Notes under the pieces: generated by a model
What the model was told of the DNA's origin: nothing
Databases searched by the model: none
What the model saw: only the letters and a program-made list of their open reading frames with translations
Part shown: one piece after another, positions 9,137 through 43,017 of the stretch
Layout of the letters: each line of letters starts with the position of its first letter
Numbering within the stretch: position 1 is the stretch's first letter
Program-made: the position numbers and the translations under genes
DNA from: Allokutzneria sp. A3M-2-11 16
Lineage (GTDB): Bacteria > Actinomycetota > Actinomycetes > Mycobacteriales > Pseudonocardiaceae
Length of the DNA stretch: 64,000 nt
Direction of reading: 5' to 3'
Assembly (NCBI RefSeq): GCF_024213555.1
Contig: NZ_JANAVO010000001.1
Location: 1,550,001 to 1,614,000 of the forward strand

Positions 9137-10141
9137 GTGGCTCGTCCGACGATGGAGGACGTCGCGCGCGTCGCGAACGTGTCGCGAGCACTGGTTTCCC
9201 TGGTCATGCGGGGCTCGCCGAAGGTCAGCGCGCAACGGCGCACGGCCGTGCTCGAAGCGGCGGAGAAACTGGGCTACTCACCGCACGTGATGGCGCGCGC
9301 CCTGGCCAGTCGAACCTCCACCGTGCTCGGCGTGATGCTCTCCGACCTGCACAACCCGTTCTTCGCCGAGGTCGCGGAGGGCCTGGACGCGGCGGCGCGG
9401 GCCGAGGGCTTCGAGCTGATCATCAACTCCGGCGGGCGCAGCCCGGCCAGGGAGCGGCGCGCGCTGAACAGCCTGCTGTCCTTCCGCCCCGCGGGACTGG
9501 CCCTGCTGGGCCCGGTCGTTCCGTCCTCAGCGATCGAGTCGGCCGCCGAGGAGTCTCCGATCGTCCTGGTGTCACGGTCTTCCAGACTGTCCACAGTGGA
9601 TACTGTGAACGATGACGGCGAGGCCGGATCTCGGATGGCCGTCGATCACCTGGTCTCGTTGGGGCACAGGCGAATCGCGCACCTCGACGGCGGGGGCGGC
9701 TCGCAGTCCGCGCTCCGCAGGCGCGGCTACCAGATCGCGATGCGCGAGCACGGCCTCGAACCGGAGGTGATCCGCAGCGAGTACACCGACGCGGCGGGCG
9801 CCAAGGCGATCAAGGAGATGCTGGCGGCGCGGAACACCGTGCCCGCACCCACGGCCATCGTGGCGGCCAACGACTACAACGCGGTCGGCGCGATCTCCGC
9901 GCTGGAGGAGGCGGGGCTGCGCGTCCCGCAGGACGTCTCGGTCATCGGCTACGACAACACCTCGCTCGCGTCGATGCGCCACGTCTCGCTGACCACGATC
10001 GACCAGCCACGCACCGAGATGGGACGGCTCGCCGCCGAGGCGCTGCTCCAGCGCGTGCGCGAGGACAGGACCGAACCGGTCCGCAAGCTGTTGCACCCCA
10101 AGCTGGTCACCCGCTCCACAACCTGTTCTCCACTGTCCTAG
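9137..10141 (+). CDS. LacI-family transcriptional repressor of the inositol cluster
   Basis: DNA-binding repressor of 334 residues. The N-terminal helix-turn-helix reads TMEDVARVANVSRALVSLVMRG, followed by a hinge (LGYSPHVMARALASRTSTVLGVML) and a periplasmic-binding-protein-like effector domain (DLHNPFFAEVAEGLDAAA, GHRRIAHLDGGGG, IVAANDYNAVGAISALEEAG, VIGYDNT). The GTG start at 9137 has a strong AAGGAGG five nt upstream (9125-9131); the long frame running in from 8576 is antisense to iolG. It is divergent from the iol operon and probably controls it through the two GAGCGCTC operators. The inducer is presumably inositol or a pathway intermediate. Confidence 0.93.
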   Translation: MARPTMEDVARVANVSRALVSLVMRGSPKVSAQRRTAVLEAAEKLGYSPHVMARALASRTSTVLGVMLSDLHNPFFAEVAEGLDAAARAEGFELIINSGGRSPARERRALNSLLSFRPAGLALLGPVVPSSAIESAAEESPIVLVSRSSRLSTVDTVNDDGEAGSRMAVDHLVSLGHRRIAHLDGGGGSQSALRRRGYQIAMREHGLEPEVIRSEYTDAAGAKAIKEMLAARNTVPAPTAIVAANDYNAVGAISALEEAGLRVPQDVSVIGYDNTSLASMRHVSLTTIDQPRTEMGRLAAEALLQRVREDRTEPVRKLLHPKLVTRSTTCSPLS

Positions 10142-10200
10142 GGCGTGCATCAGGGGTCCGTGTTCGCGATAGCCAGGCCGAGCCCGCCCCTGACTGCACC

Positions 10201-10243
10201 GGCGGGAAGCCCACGTACAACACCGGTACGCGGACTTCCCGCC
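10201..10243 (+). terminator. hairpin terminator after the lacI-type gene
   Basis: GGCGGGAAG (10201-10209) pairs with CTTCCCGCC (10235-10243). The stem continues inward with two mismatches to a GTAC/GTAC base pair block and a 7-nt loop at 10219-10225. The following bases GTCTTG give only a weak T-tract. The 173-nt gap at 10142-10314 holds nothing else that I can identify. Confidence 0.55.
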
Positions 10244-10314
10244 GTCTTGCCAGGAACGACCTCGATCCCGGCTCTCATCGAACGAGACCCCAGATGCACA
10301 CCCAAGGAGGAAGT

Positions 10315-11805
10315 GTGACCGGCTTAGTTCCGCACTGGATCGACGGAGCGCGCACCACGGGCGCCTCCACGCGGCGGGCCAGCGTGTTCCAACCGGCGAC
10401 CGGCGAGGTCGCGCGCGAGGTCGTGCTCGCGGAACAGTCCGATGTGGATAGTGCGGTGGCTTCTGCGGTGAAGGCAGCACAGGACTGGGGCGAGTCCTCG
10501 CTGTCCACCCGCGCCAAGGTGATGTTCGAGTTCCGCCAGCTGGTCCAGGCGCACCGGGACGAACTGGCCGAGATCATCACCGCCGAGCACGGCAAGGTGC
10601 TCTCCGACGCCGCCGGCGAGGTGCAGCGCGGCCTCGAAGTGGTGGAGTTCGCCTGCGGTATCCCGCACCTGCTCAAGGGCGAGCACTCCGAACAGGTCTC
10701 GCGCGGTGTCGACGCCTACTCCGTGCGCCAGCCGCTCGGCGTGGTCGCGGGCATCACCCCGTTCAACTTCCCCGCCATGGTGCCGATGTGGATGTTCCCG
10801 CTGGCCATCGCGTGCGGGAACGCCTTCATCCTCAAGCCTTCCGAGCGCGATCCGTCCACCGCCGTCCGCCTCGCCGAGCTGTTCCAGGAGGCGGGCCTGC
10901 CCGATGGCGTGCTGAACGTGTTGCAGGGCGACGCTTTCGCGGTCAACGCGCTGCTCGACCACTCGGATGTCGCGGCGGCGTCCTTCGTCGGCTCCACACC
11001 GATCGCGCGGCACGTGTACGCGCGGGGAACCGCTGCGGGCAAGCGAATCCAGGCGTTGGGCGGCGCGAAGAACCACATGGTGGTGCTGCCCGACGCGGAC
11101 ATCGACGGTGCGGCCGACGCGGCGGTCTCGGCGGGCTTCGGCTCGGCGGGTGAGCGGTGCATGGCGATCTCCGTCGTGGTCGCGGTCGGCGACGTCGCGG
11201 ACTCGCTGATCCCGGCGATCACCTCGCGGATGGCGTCGTTGGTGACCGGCCCCGGCACCGATCCGGCCTCGCAGATGGGTCCGTTGGTGACCGATGTGCA
11301 CCGCGACCGCGTTCAGTCCTATGTGGACGCTGGGGTCGCTTCGGGGGCTTCGCTCGTGGTGGACGGCCGTGGTTACGCACCGGCTGGGCACGCGGACGGT
11401 TTCTGGCTGGCACCAACACTTTTCGACCACGTGACGCCGGAGATGCCGATCTACCAGGACGAGATCTTCGGGCCGGTGCTGTGCGTCGTGCGCGTGCCGA
11501 CCTTCGACGCGGCGGTGGAGCTGGTCAACGCCAACCCCTACGGCAACGGCACCGCGATCTTCACCGGCGACGGTCTCGCGGCGCGTGAGTACCAACGGCG
11601 GGTGCACGTCGGGATGATCGGTGTGAACGTGCCGATCCCGGTGCCGATGGCGTACTACTCCTTCGGCGGCTGGAAGGACTCGCTCTTCGGCGACACGCAC
11701 GTGCACGGGGCCGACGGCGTCCGCTTCTACACCCGCGCCAAGGCCATCACCCAACGCTGGCCGAAGCACCACGGCGTGAACCTCGGCTTCCCCACGCACA
11801 CGTAA
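10315..11805 (+). CDS. mmsA: CoA-acylating methylmalonate-semialdehyde dehydrogenase
   Basis: Aldehyde dehydrogenase of the MmsA/IolA class, 496 residues. It would convert malonate semialdehyde, the last inositol-pathway intermediate, to acetyl-CoA, or methylmalonate semialdehyde to propionyl-CoA. The N-terminus VPHWIDGARTTG, PLGVVAGITPFNFPAMVPMWM, GAKNHMVVLPDAD and the active-site segment FGSAGERCMAISV with the catalytic Cys are visible. The C-terminus has GGWKDSLFGDTHVHG. The GTG at 10315 is preferred over ATG 10294 because AAGGAGG lies 4 nt upstream. It follows the lacI-type gene on the same strand; its only link to the iol operon is proximity and chemistry. Confidence 0.92.
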   Translation: MTGLVPHWIDGARTTGASTRRASVFQPATGEVAREVVLAEQSDVDSAVASAVKAAQDWGESSLSTRAKVMFEFRQLVQAHRDELAEIITAEHGKVLSDAAGEVQRGLEVVEFACGIPHLLKGEHSEQVSRGVDAYSVRQPLGVVAGITPFNFPAMVPMWMFPLAIACGNAFILKPSERDPSTAVRLAELFQEAGLPDGVLNVLQGDAFAVNALLDHSDVAAASFVGSTPIARHVYARGTAAGKRIQALGGAKNHMVVLPDADIDGAADAAVSAGFGSAGERCMAISVVVAVGDVADSLIPAITSRMASLVTGPGTDPASQMGPLVTDVHRDRVQSYVDAGVASGASLVVDGRGYAPAGHADGFWLAPTLFDHVTPEMPIYQDEIFGPVLCVVRVPTFDAAVELVNANPYGNGTAIFTGDGLAAREYQRRVHVGMIGVNVPIPVPMAYYSFGGWKDSLFGDTHVHGADGVRFYTRAKAITQRWPKHHGVNLGFPTHT

Positions 11806-11823
11806 CCGGCACGGTGGTTGGGG

Positions 11824-11945
11824 CGTCTTCAAGTACCCCGCACCCCACCTGAGGCGACCGCAAACCGCCCCTAACCCCCGCTGGAGCTACGGGGGTTAGG
11901 GGCGGTTGTGGTCGCCGGGAGGGGGGTCGGAGGTACTTGAAGACG
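11824..11945. repeat. long nested inverted repeat, CGTCTTCAAGTAC family copy 1
   Basis: Outer arms CGTCTTCAAGTACC (11824-11837) and GGTACTTGAAGACG (11932-11945) are perfectly complementary. Inner arms at 11853-11880 and 11890-11916 pair over about 27 bp with one mismatch and one bulge around the core CCGCCCCTAACCCCCG, leaving a 9-nt loop. It fills the gap between convergent mmsA and the GH6 gene, ending 7 bp before the GH6 stop, so it may terminate from both sides. A second copy with the same outer arms is at 41041-41163. Confidence 0.85.
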
Positions 11946-11952
11946 GGTGAAC

Positions 11953-12858
11953 TCAGGTGCCGGTGATCAATCGGGTGGCGATGTCGGGGGAGAAGGTGCC
12001 TGCGGGGACGGTGGGCGCGATGCCGCACTTCCCGTCGGAGTTTCCGGGGACCTTGACCCACAGCAGCATGTCCGCGCCGCCACCGATGCGCGGCGGCTCA
12101 CCGATCCTGCGACCGGCGGGGTTGCACCACTGGCCGTTGGAGCCGTTGCCGTTGCGGCTCACGTCGACCACGAAGGTCTTGGTGTGCCCCAAGGTCGACA
12201 ACGTGGAGCGCAGCGCGTTGCCGTAGAGCACGGAGGCCGACGTCGTGTGGTAGTTCGACACGTTGAGGGCGAACCCGCGGACGTTGGCGATGCCGACCTT
12301 GTTCAGCCGCTTGGCCATCTCCGACGCCGAGATCCAGGTGGCGTGACCGGCGTCGAGGTACACCGATGCCTTGGGCGCCTTGGCTTTCAGTTGTTCGGTG
12401 AAGTACGTCAGCAGCTCGATCCGGGTCTGCCGCTGCGGCTCGGTGAGGCAGTCGAGCTGCGCCACCGCGTCCGGTTCGACCACTACGACGGCCGGGCGGT
12501 CGCCGATGCCCGCCGCGAACTGCGAGCTCCAGGTGCGGTACTCGGCGGGTGAGCCGGCGCCCCCGCCGGAGTGGCTGCCGCAGTCACGGCCGGGGATGTT
12601 GTAGGCGACCATGACGGGCAGCCGGTTGGCCGCCGCGGCGGTGCCCACGTGGGCGGCGACCGAACCGACGTTCTTGCCGCCGATCCACTTCGCCGTGGGC
12701 TTCGTGGCGATGTCGGCGTTGATGCGAGCCCGGCGGGGGTCGTCCGGGTGCTCCCGGACCCAGGTCGCCGGGGTGGAGTTCGGGTCGACGTAGAAAGCGG
12801 ACGGGGCGGCGTCCGGAACGAGGACGCCGCCCAGCACCGCGAGGACCAACGTGATCAT
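11953..12858 (-). CDS. secreted glycoside hydrolase family 6 enzyme (cellulase), copy 1
   Basis: Predicted extracellular cellulase of 301 residues that should hydrolyse beta-1,4-glucan. The short hydrophobic N-terminus MITLVLAVLGGVLVPDAAPSA is a signal peptide. GH6 markers are FYVDPNSTPATWV, VMVAYNIPGRDCG, VVVVEPDAVAQLDC with the proton-donor Asp, SVYLDAGHATWIS and WVKVPGNSDGKCG with NGSNGQWCNP before it. It has the catalytic module only, with no carbohydrate-binding domain. The ATG has GGAGGCGG about 5 nt upstream. It starts 28 nt after the stop of the paralogous GH6 gene, and both probably belong to the CebR-controlled unit. Confidence 0.93.
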   Translation of the reverse strand: MITLVLAVLGGVLVPDAAPSAFYVDPNSTPATWVREHPDDPRRARINADIATKPTAKWIGGKNVGSVAAHVGTAAAANRLPVMVAYNIPGRDCGSHSGGGAGSPAEYRTWSSQFAAGIGDRPAVVVVEPDAVAQLDCLTEPQRQTRIELLTYFTEQLKAKAPKASVYLDAGHATWISASEMAKRLNKVGIANVRGFALNVSNYHTTSASVLYGNALRSTLSTLGHTKTFVVDVSRNGNGSNGQWCNPAGRRIGEPPRIGGGADMLLWVKVPGNSDGKCGIAPTVPAGTFSPDIATRLITGT

Positions 12859-40618: not shown

Positions 40619-41002
40619 TCAGTATTTCAATGACACGAGCGGAAGCCACTGCGAAACGTCTGCTCGGACACCCGATGCGTCAATTCGGCCGTCTTCAAGT
40701 GCCGCGTCCCAGTTGACCCGTCCGAGCACGAGTTCGAGCCAGGTGCGCGGATCGGTTTCGACGACGTTCGGCGGCGTGCCCCGCGTGTGCTTCGGCCCGG
40801 GAACGCATTGCACGGCGGCGAACGGCGGCACCCGGACCTCGACGCTGTGGCCGGGCGCGGCGAGCTCCAACGTGCGGAGGCTCAGCCGCACCGCGGCCGC
40901 GAGCGTCTTGCGATCGGGCCGCGCTCCGCCGTCGAGCCACGGCACCACCGCCGCGACCGCGTCACGCAGCTCGTGCGGATCCACCGCTTTCCTCAACGAC
41001 AC
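40619..41002 (-). CDS. sterol-carrier-family protein
   Basis: A 127-residue cytosolic protein resembling the sterol carrier family proteins found beside purine genes in actinobacteria. Visible segments are LRTLELAAPGHSVEVRVPPFAAVQCV and NVVETDPRTWLELVLGRVNWDAALEDGRIDASG, the latter the typical SCP2-like C-terminal motif. No signal peptide. It lies 46 nt upstream of the MHS transporter on the same strand. Function unknown. Confidence 0.75.
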   Translation of the reverse strand: MSLRKAVDPHELRDAVAAVVPWLDGGARPDRKTLAAAVRLSLRTLELAAPGHSVEVRVPPFAAVQCVPGPKHTRGTPPNVVETDPRTWLELVLGRVNWDAALEDGRIDASGVRADVSQWLPLVSLKY

Positions 41003-41040
41003 CCGCTCAGGCTAACCGTCCCTCACCGCCGTAGTTCCCC

Positions 41041-41163
41041 CGTCTTCAAGTACGACACACCCCCTCCCCAGCGACCACTAAGTGCGCCTAACCCCCAGCG
41101 GGCGCACGCGGGTTAGGCGTCGTTTGAGACCGCTGGGGAGGGGGTTCGTGGTACTTGAAGACG
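41041..41163. repeat. long nested inverted repeat, CGTCTTCAAGTAC family copy 2
   Basis: Outer arms CGTCTTCAAGTAC (41041-41053) and GTACTTGAAGACG (41151-41163) are perfect. Middle arms CCCCCTCCCCAGCG (41060-41073) and CGCTGGGGAGGGGG (41131-41144) are perfect. Inner arms CGCCTAACCC (41085-41094) and GGGTTAGGCG (41110-41119) are perfect. It begins 2 bp from the stop of the leftward beta-helix gene (41166). Same outer arms and CCTAACCC core as the copy at 11824-11945, but different middle arms. Confidence 0.85.
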
Positions 41164-41165
41164 CC

Positions 41166-42827
41166 CTAACGTCGGCGGCGGAGGCGGAGTGCGCGTTGGG
41201 CCCGGTGGAGGTTGGGCGGGGTGACGGTGGTGGTGCCGTAGCTCTCGATGCGGGAGTTGAGGGGGCCGGTGAAGTCGGGTTTGTCGATCTGGCCGAATTC
41301 GCGGACGGTGGAGATGCCGACGGTGGCGCTGCACGGGGCTACGTGGTCGATCTTCACGCAGCCCGCGCGCTCGTTGGTGACCTTGATGTTCCAGTGCGTG
41401 AACCTGGCCCCGTACAACGGTCCCGCGTTCGCGCTGCCGCCGTGGTTGCCGTCGTTGAAGATCTCCACCTCGGTGCGCACGTTGTGGAACGGCAGGCCCC
41501 GATGCGTGTCGAAGGTGCCGGCCTCCATCCGCCCGCGCGACCACACGTTGCCGCACGACAAGCCCTCTACGTTGATGCCGTGGTGTCCGGCGCCGGGCGG
41601 GGCGGGCTCGGTGAACTTGCCGATGCCGAAGTCCTCGACGAGGTTGTCGTGCGCCTGCTCGCGGCACGCGTACGAATGGTGCTGACCGCGTCCGTCGACC
41701 CGGGTCTTGCGCAACGTGACGTTCTTCGACGCCACGAAGAGGAAGCCGTTGTCACTGTCCACAACGGACACATCATCGGCCCAGCAGTCCCATGCGCACT
41801 GGAACACCAAGCCGTTGTATCCCTTGTCCTGCAAGTGCACCGGGCGCTGAGTCTTCACGAACCTGATGGTCAGGCCCTCGACCCCGGCGCCGACGACAGG
41901 CGGAGTGAGCGTGGTGAGACGCGGCTTCCACCCCATACGGGCGTCGATCGGCAACGGCTGTTGGAGGCGAATCTTGTTGCCCTGCACCGATTCGATGCGC
42001 ACTGGCCACTGGAACGGGCGGTAGGACAACAGTTTGTCCTTGTTGGACCACGTGTAGCTCGCGGTGCCCGGGATGTCGCCGCACATGTGCTTGAGCAGCC
42101 CGTATTCGGCGTCGTCGTCGATCTGGAGCAGCACGCGCTGTCCCGCAGCAAGGCGATTGCCGTCCGCGACGGTCAGATCGAAGTCCCCGCGCTTCGCCGC
42201 AGCGGACACCGTCGTGATCACTGACGCCTTGTCGCCCTCGTTGCCGATCCACCCCTCCATCGGCCACTTCTTCGCCTTGACGGCTGCCGTCAAGTCCCGG
42301 TAGCGGTCGCGGTGGCAGACCCACACGATGCCGCCCGACCAGCTCCACGCGGAGTTCTCCGAGCCGTAGCGGCTGCGGTTGATGCCGATGATCTGCTCGA
42401 GCGACCGCGTGCCGTGGAGGATCGTCTTCCCACTACCCGCACCGCGCAGCACCACGTTGTCGTAGCCGATCTGCACGATGTCGTCGATGCGGTAGGTGCC
42501 CGCGGGCAGGGTGACCACTCCGCCGCCGCGCTGACCGACGTCGGCGATCGCCTTGTTGATCGCGGGCGCGGAGTCTGCGGAGCCGTCGCGCTTGGCCCCG
42601 TAGTCCAGCACGTTGGCGCGCACCGGACCGCGCGGCGGCTCGGCGCCGTAGCGGTAGCCCGCGAACGAGACGTTGGGGATCTGCGGGTGGGTGTACGGCG
42701 TTCGGACGAACTCGCGCCACAACGGCGATTCAGCGCGAGGTGCGGCCGTCGCCGAAGGCGCGGGGCGCAGGTGGTAGCCGACCATCGCCGCCAAACCACC
42801 GGAGAGGAACGTCCTGCGAGAGAGCAT
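41166..42827 (-). CDS. Tat-exported right-handed beta-helix (pectate-lyase-fold) protein
   Basis: Secreted protein of 553 residues. The N-terminus MLSRRTFLSGGLAAMVGY has the twin-Arg pattern, so export is probably folded via Tat. After about residue 75 it shows the pectate-lyase superfamily opening NVLDYGAKRDGSADSAPAINKAIADVGQRGGGVVTLPAGTYRIDDIV. Repeated Asn-rich beta-helix coils follow (DNVVLRGAGSGKTIL, GVEGLTIRFVKTQ, DDVSVVDSDNGFLFVASKNVTLRKTRVDG). A polysaccharide-lyase or hydrolase role is likely, substrate unknown. ATG 42827 has GGAG 4 nt upstream. Divergent from the frameshifted GH2 gene. Confidence 0.85.
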   Translation of the reverse strand: MLSRRTFLSGGLAAMVGYHLRPAPSATAAPRAESPLWREFVRTPYTHPQIPNVSFAGYRYGAEPPRGPVRANVLDYGAKRDGSADSAPAINKAIADVGQRGGGVVTLPAGTYRIDDIVQIGYDNVVLRGAGSGKTILHGTRSLEQIIGINRSRYGSENSAWSWSGGIVWVCHRDRYRDLTAAVKAKKWPMEGWIGNEGDKASVITTVSAAAKRGDFDLTVADGNRLAAGQRVLLQIDDDAEYGLLKHMCGDIPGTASYTWSNKDKLLSYRPFQWPVRIESVQGNKIRLQQPLPIDARMGWKPRLTTLTPPVVGAGVEGLTIRFVKTQRPVHLQDKGYNGLVFQCAWDCWADDVSVVDSDNGFLFVASKNVTLRKTRVDGRGQHHSYACREQAHDNLVEDFGIGKFTEPAPPGAGHHGINVEGLSCGNVWSRGRMEAGTFDTHRGLPFHNVRTEVEIFNDGNHGGSANAGPLYGARFTHWNIKVTNERAGCVKIDHVAPCSATVGISTVREFGQIDKPDFTGPLNSRIESYGTTTVTPPNLHRAQRALRLRRRR

Positions 42828-43017
42828 GAGTCTCCTGGTCCCAAACACGGGGCGGCGGTTTGGTTGACCGGCAGTTTCCCCAACCCGGCGGGCTTTGGGA
42901 AGGGCTTTCCCGCAGGCGGCTCATTCGTAAGACGTCTTGTCAAACACCCCGGAAACCGGCAAGGGTGTTACCGGATACGCCCCCTGTCCACCGCCGCCAT
43001 GGTTGCCAGGAGTCCTG

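Follow-up and report, generated by a model that had tools for sequence, protein, structure and literature searches.

A dispersed family of composite hairpin elements at the 3' ends of genes in a Pseudonocardiaceae genome

The window analysed here, G000:C11:1550001-1614000, is a stretch of 64,000 nucleotides from an 8.8-Mb Pseudonocardiaceae genome (the source genome, G000). Two hairpin-forming segments, named element 1 and element 2, lie in it at gene ends (Table 1). Element 1 sits between the convergent genes for an aldehyde dehydrogenase and a glycosyl hydrolase of family 6; its right end overlaps the stop of the latter gene, and its outer limits are approximate. Element 2 separates two minus-strand genes, one pectate-lyase-like and the other, downstream, small and SCP-like. 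As claimed in an earlier note on this DNA, the two loci share perfect 13-bp outer arms, CGTCTTCAAGTAC and its reverse complement, as well as a core, CCTAACCC, in the inner arm; their lengths are nearly equal (122 and 123 bp), and both lie a few bases from a minus-strand stop (11953 and 41166), element 1 lying in addition past a plus-strand stop. Folded as RNA, either locus on either strand reaches a predicted -86 to -105 kcal/mol (z -7.2 to -13.0 relative to shuffles), a stable hairpin at a gene end of the kind expected of an intrinsic terminator. No U-tract was noticed on unsystematic inspection, a point against the explanation favoured below. None of the Rfam 15 models matched in the window at the gathering score.

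Table 1. Position of the two elements, their sites and the neighbouring genes in the window.
Feature	Positions	Strand	Remark
Aldehyde dehydrogenase gene (PF00171)	10294-11805	+	Stop 18 bp ahead of element 1
Element 1, approximate full extent	11806-11964	.	GGTT/AACC flank motif outside the 12-mers; no element in G002 here
Element 1, left outer site CGTCTTCAAGTAC	11824-11836	+	
Element 1, left inner site, inner-hairpin stem	11857-11878	+	
Element 1, right inner site	11892-11913	-	
Element 1, right outer site, reverse complement of CGTCTTCAAGTAC	11933-11945	-	
Glycosyl hydrolase family 6 gene (PF01341)	11953-12858	-	Convergent, ends at element 1
Small SCP-like gene (PF17844)	40619-41002	-	Downstream of element 2, same strand; own gene call start 40984
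Element 2, segment inserted relative to G002, ~148 bp	41028-41175	.	Limits +/- some bases; empty also in G001
Element 2, left outer site CGTCTTCAAGTAC	41041-41053	+	
Element 2, left inner site	41074-41095	+	
Element 2, right inner site	41109-41130	-	
Element 2, right outer site, reverse complement of CGTCTTCAAGTAC	41151-41163	-	
Pectate-lyase-like gene (PF12708)	41166-42848	-	Ends 2 bp from element 2; own gene call start 42827

A second structured repeat of ~150 bp, unrelated to these elements, occupies positions 10138-10290, with the aldehyde dehydrogenase gene on one side and another plus-strand gene on the other. It is absent from the same place in the congener G002, which carries more than 10 copies elsewhere, and three copies were found in the 1.07 Mb of G000 that were examined.

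The full element is ~150 bp long and extends past the 13-mers. Each arm combines two related sites, the outer one reading GTCTTCAAGTACnnCnnACCCC and the inner one nTCnnnAACnGCnnCnAACC; the inner site is offset 32 bp inward in 158 of 166 arms. The extent of some 122 bp given previously is therefore too short, as testified by a conserved GGTT motif that flanks the 12-mer externally at -9 to -6 in either arm and by the length of the segment inserted at the second locus. The family also comprises variant forms with a single arm, with stacked arms or with two adjacent elements. At G000:C11:1450296-1450551, three direct-repeat arms at 68-bp spacing are followed by one inverted arm, and at locus L220 of genome G261 four GTCTTC/GAAGAC palindromic sites within ~140 bp stand in place of the usual hairpin.

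A single conserved motif, present in inverted copies, makes up the outer arms, and its variable positions are unpaired. A whole-arm hairpin predicts that the left and right arms match at variable positions more often within than between elements. Such a match is seen at ten variable positions of the inner site (z 2.3 to 7.5), whereas the variable positions of the outer site show none (z -3.2 to 1.1); for flanking positions, z ranges from -3.6 to 3.2 and is raised at -1 and -9 only. RNAalifold applied to 76 elements likewise detected changes on both sides in five of 27 pairs, all of them in the inner stem. Its covariation term is small (-0.17), which weighs against the explanation that we favour below, and each of those inner pairs is disrupted by a mismatch or a gap in 3-17 sequences. 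Some relatives have a 29-bp palindrome as their outer site, in which pairing at variable positions is 0.52 as compared with 0.42 and 0.39 after shuffling (25 sites). The interior that had been described as diverged yet still paired is thus confirmed for the inner stem, but not for the variable positions of the outer arms. In our reading, the outer sites would be recognised as sequence while the inner sites would form the stem.

Sites of this kind could also belong to a DNA-level binding array, whose inverted copies would dock a chromosome-organising or regulatory protein, with gene ends serving as free space and no role for the RNA. Outer sites constrained in sequence and not in pairing, the occurrence of half elements and stacked sites, and the regular inner offset, which corresponds to about three helical turns, are all compatible with docking. 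The covarying inner stem, needless for a plain double-strand site, and the high turnover between congeners (see below) argue against such an array, which we regard as improbable.

A search of the whole genome for further arm pairs, proposed in the earlier note, returned 36 paired 13-mers and 143 exact-ended copies with paired 12-mers (GTCTTCAAGTAC), the controls giving 0 in both cases. The exact 13-mer itself occurs 90 + 104 times, its reversed control 0 + 1 times. With at most one mismatch, single arms number 293 + 291 (control 0), suggesting about 290 elements in G000. Like MITEs, the elements are thus numerous, non-coding and bounded by terminal inverted repeats, and their repetition is far beyond chance. 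These copies lie beside unrelated genes, and conservation of the arms through homologous flanking genes does not account for them. For the analyses below, 83 elements were collected in 1.07 Mb of G000: 21 come from an 800-kb block taken irrespective of arms and 62 from other loci, which had been selected for exact arms. The 800-kb block holds 22 clusters, half elements counted, and three weak arms within genes.

The position of the elements relative to genes is strongly biased. By our own gene calls (754 genes in 800 kb), the 753 background gene pairs comprise 117 convergent, 518 tandem and 118 divergent ones, while 53 of the 83 elements lie between convergent, 27 between tandem and 3 between divergent genes (binomial p 3e-23 for the convergent excess). 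The unchosen 800-kb block taken alone gives 13, 8 and 0 of 21, respectively. In tandem gaps the element is at most 31 bp from the upstream stop in 22 of 27 cases, and between convergent genes the nearer stop is within 32 bp in 47 of 53. A location downstream of genes or between convergent genes is also that of REP/BIME repeats. Among 24 loci from other genomes of the family, two of these genomes being congeners, a gene context could be assigned to 22 (9 convergent, 12 tandem and 1 divergent), with looser distances: 7 of the 12 tandem cases lie within 50 bp, for values of 8 to 408. No clear pattern linked arm-type asymmetry to gene direction. Together with the covarying inner stem, this position supports the gene-end structure that the earlier note had put forward as one of two readings.

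The other reading, a MITE-like element, was assessed by comparison with G002, which is collinear with G000 at ~92% identity. Over 736 kb of alignment, one of the 22 G000 clusters is clearly shared (1385590), 20 have no element in G002 and one (1201553) may correspond to a degenerate copy. Such extensive absence weighs against the explanation we prefer. A model scan of the matching 800 kb of G002 found the shared copy alone above 20 bits. Four of the 20 sites without an element hold different sequence instead (340-930 bp). The empty G002 sites at 1438501 and 1495357, read by eye, consist of convergent genes with overlapping stops, and where G000 has element 1, the same stops in G002 enclose a perfect hairpin that differs from it. 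The element 2 site is empty in both G002 and G001, so that insertion in G000 is the simpler reading there. At 1987639, the same stop is followed in G001 by an element that differs strongly from the G000 one, and by none in G002, which goes against a simple insertion story. At 1638766, both species have an ordinary hairpin terminator next to the element, a further point against our preferred explanation. The many further copies and the orthologous loci lacking an element, which had been named as a check and are indeed present in congeners, nevertheless support mobility, and on these sequence comparisons we regard the hairpin family as mobile.

Another type of hairpin repeat with AATGAGTCATT-like arms was observed at gene ends in G002 (G002:C1:5755140-5755270, in the L149-L168 stretch) and in G001 (L140). 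In G002, one hairpin of this type occupies the place of the G000 element 1407474.

The copies in G000 are 73% identical on average, with a nearest-neighbour median of 83% and a maximum of 95%. Divergence is confined almost entirely to the variable positions: in the 12 closest pairs, the skeleton differs at 1 of 575 sites and the variable positions at 96 of 519, the skeleton being derived from the same copies that are compared and detection having required AAG and a minimum motif score. A covariance model free of the AAG and motif-score rule, although built from many of these copies, detected 21 elements at 99-137 bits in the 800-kb block and nothing between 28 and 99 bits; below these came two half elements together with a single short match. 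In these 800 kb the model thus revealed no decay intermediates between intact and half elements, which speaks for selection or fast removal. The 14 copies without a counterpart in G002 are on average only 72% alike, and at most 82%, which indicates that no single recent master produced them and that many different sources must be assumed, a further reservation about the explanation that we favour.

Elements with the same layout extend to relatives. Model matches at E <=1e-4 were obtained in 26 of 390 genomes of the family and in nine of its 46 genera, counts that are floors as seven candidates were scored per genome; the match in G237 (E 7e-6), whose ends differ from those of the rest, could be due to chance. 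The ends are genus-specific (GTCTTCAAGTAC, CTCTTCAAGGAC, GTCTGCAAGTAC, GTCTCCAAGACC and others) while the layout is unchanged, and 75-bp forms made of the outer arms only also occur. The 29-bp palindrome is present with at most two mismatches in five of the 390 genomes; its exact form was found in GTDB r220 contigs only in Herbihabitans rhizosphaerae (Pseudonocardiaceae), in 11 stretches, a search from which our own genome may have been left out. Among 40 loci fetched, 25 fall into nine orthologous sets of two to five species each, in three genera. Orthologous elements are 82% alike and their flanks 85%, as compared with 77% for non-orthologous elements of genus g3. In 29 ortholog comparisons, folded both ways and not independent of one another, pairing survives 70 of 122 double changes in outer sites and 91 of 136 in inner sites, for about 0.44 expected by chance from a simple count. 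One-sided, pair-breaking changes outnumber these pair-keeping double changes (227 vs 70 in outer and 188 vs 91 in inner sites), which again counts against the explanation that we favour.

These comparisons bear on the main rival of that explanation, in which the element is a purely selfish miniature whose presence at gene ends is tolerated: insertions elsewhere would be harmful, copies would be young or quickly removed and the hairpin would serve transposition only. Empty sites in congeners, the patchy presence across the family and a gain or loss that is evidently tolerated fit such an element well. It accounts less readily for tandem copies that lie closer to the upstream stop than avoidance of genes gives, for the lack of decayed copies in 800 kb and for the orthologous elements kept in the nine sets, and we hold it to be rather unlikely.

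Signs of a mover were sought around the elements and in the genomes. Direct repeats within 70 bp of the 83 elements were at the shuffled level, with no general excess, and no target-site duplication stood directly beside the core of any of them; a flanking direct repeat of at least 10 bp was present in three of the 83 (16, 10 and 10 bp) for a shuffled mean of 0.3. At 1762890 and 1987639, the repeat is a duplicate of the gene end (16-20 and 10 bp, respectively, thus differing in length), and G002 has the stretch once in each case (20 bp at the former). The target-site duplications suggested by the earlier note are therefore not a regular feature of these elements. The Y1 tyrosine transposase of IS200/RAYT (PF01797) had no match in G000 nor in 13 of the 15 genomes searched, the other two having one, and the ISL3 transposase (PF01610) was found neither in G000 nor in six of ten genomes searched. 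No autonomous copy, with arms flanking a transposase, was seen in 1.07 of the 8.8 Mb of G000. A pattern search of viral contigs and a search of plasmids with element 2 only gave no match.

An ISL3-family origin was considered because the ends of genus g3 read GGCTCTTC. More broadly, the elements could be an ISL3-family MITE or REP/BIME repeats moved by a tyrosine transposase of the IS200/IS605 type (RAYT), in line with the location of REPs downstream of genes, often as inverted pairs (PMC3733652). We consider both very improbable, since the absence of a regular target-site duplication and of PF01797 and PF01610 from G000 leaves a classical MITE and a RAYT-driven REP unsupported. Of the earlier proposal of a MITE-like element or gene-end RNA structure, mobility and the gene-end structure are thus supported, and the strict MITE is not.

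Three other candidates were examined and rejected. Next to the half element at C11:1483931, and ending at it, lies an insertion of ~0.9 kb (G000:C11:1483046-1484000) that is absent from G002 and contains small minus-strand ORFs, one of them with a sub-threshold match to DUF6247; none of the ORFs resembles a transposase, and the pair was not retained as an autonomous element. Integron attC sites, judged on their general features, were dropped because the copies are dispersed and the terminal motif is of opposite sense. The 13-mer starts with CGTC, the tag of some REPs, but its leading C is not conserved.

Among known repeats, ERIC, RUP and NEMIS are intergenic elements of 100-160 bp with long inverted repeats and many copies. 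The present family resembles them in size, inverted repeats, location and copy number, and differs by the lack of a regular target duplication and by a composite arm with an unpaired variable outer part; to our knowledge their sequences are unrelated. Bidirectional intrinsic terminators are strong GC-rich hairpins between convergent genes, near both stops. Here too the hairpin and its place are alike, but the sequence skeleton is conserved across copies that have spread as a repeat family, and termination is only putative. REPs are 20-40 bp long, carry a GTAG or CGTC tag and lie downstream of genes, between convergent or unidirectional ones, often as inverted pairs; the CGTC families have stems of 8-9 bp with AT at the first two positions, and an RNA role has been proposed for REPs along with their gene-end position (PMC3733652). 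The passages of this text that were examined name Actinobacteria 0 times. Our elements share with REP/BIME a short structured form, gene-end position, high copy number and frequent inverted pairs; they are not 20-40-bp palindromes with GTAG or CGTC at the foot but ~150 bp long, with two kinds of site per arm and a variable base before GTC, and, unlike RAYT-linked REPs, they occur in a genome without RAYT. Literature searches, the 12-mer included, returned no paper that we recognised as describing this repeat. The family is closest in kind to REP/BIME and ERIC-like repeats but has a composite anatomy of its own.

Taken together, these data lead us to favour a mobile, REP/BIME-like gene-end hairpin that probably persists because it closes off transcripts arriving from either side. 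The elements would be dispersed mobile units of ~150 bp at the 3' ends of genes, with two mirror-image arms, each made of an outer site (GGTTnGnnnGTCTTCAAGTACnnCnnACCCC in G000, the 29-bp palindrome in some relatives) and an inner site 32 bp further in. A sequence-specific protein would read the inverted outer sites and move or copy the element, which would land or survive beside stop codons; there, the hairpin would end or protect transcripts coming from one or both sides, and this role in transcripts would keep its structure under selection. A more far-reaching version, which we put forward tentatively, is that the elements form a new class of mobile gene-end modules, portable two-way transcript ends kept by the host. 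A lineage-specific protein would then change together with the outer sites, giving one 'dialect' of ends per genus, with no fixed target duplication and no Y1 transposase, and copies would replace ordinary hairpins at the same gene ends.

If the preferred reading is correct, a mobile hairpin rewires gene ends in these actinobacteria, with an estimated 290 or so copies in one genome, inserted beside stop codons and preserved intact, and few in its congeners. It would then become testable whether a transcription terminator can arise by co-option of a mobile repeat, and by what means REP-like repeats move in the absence of RAYT; ends that differ by genus should make it easier to identify the protein reading them.
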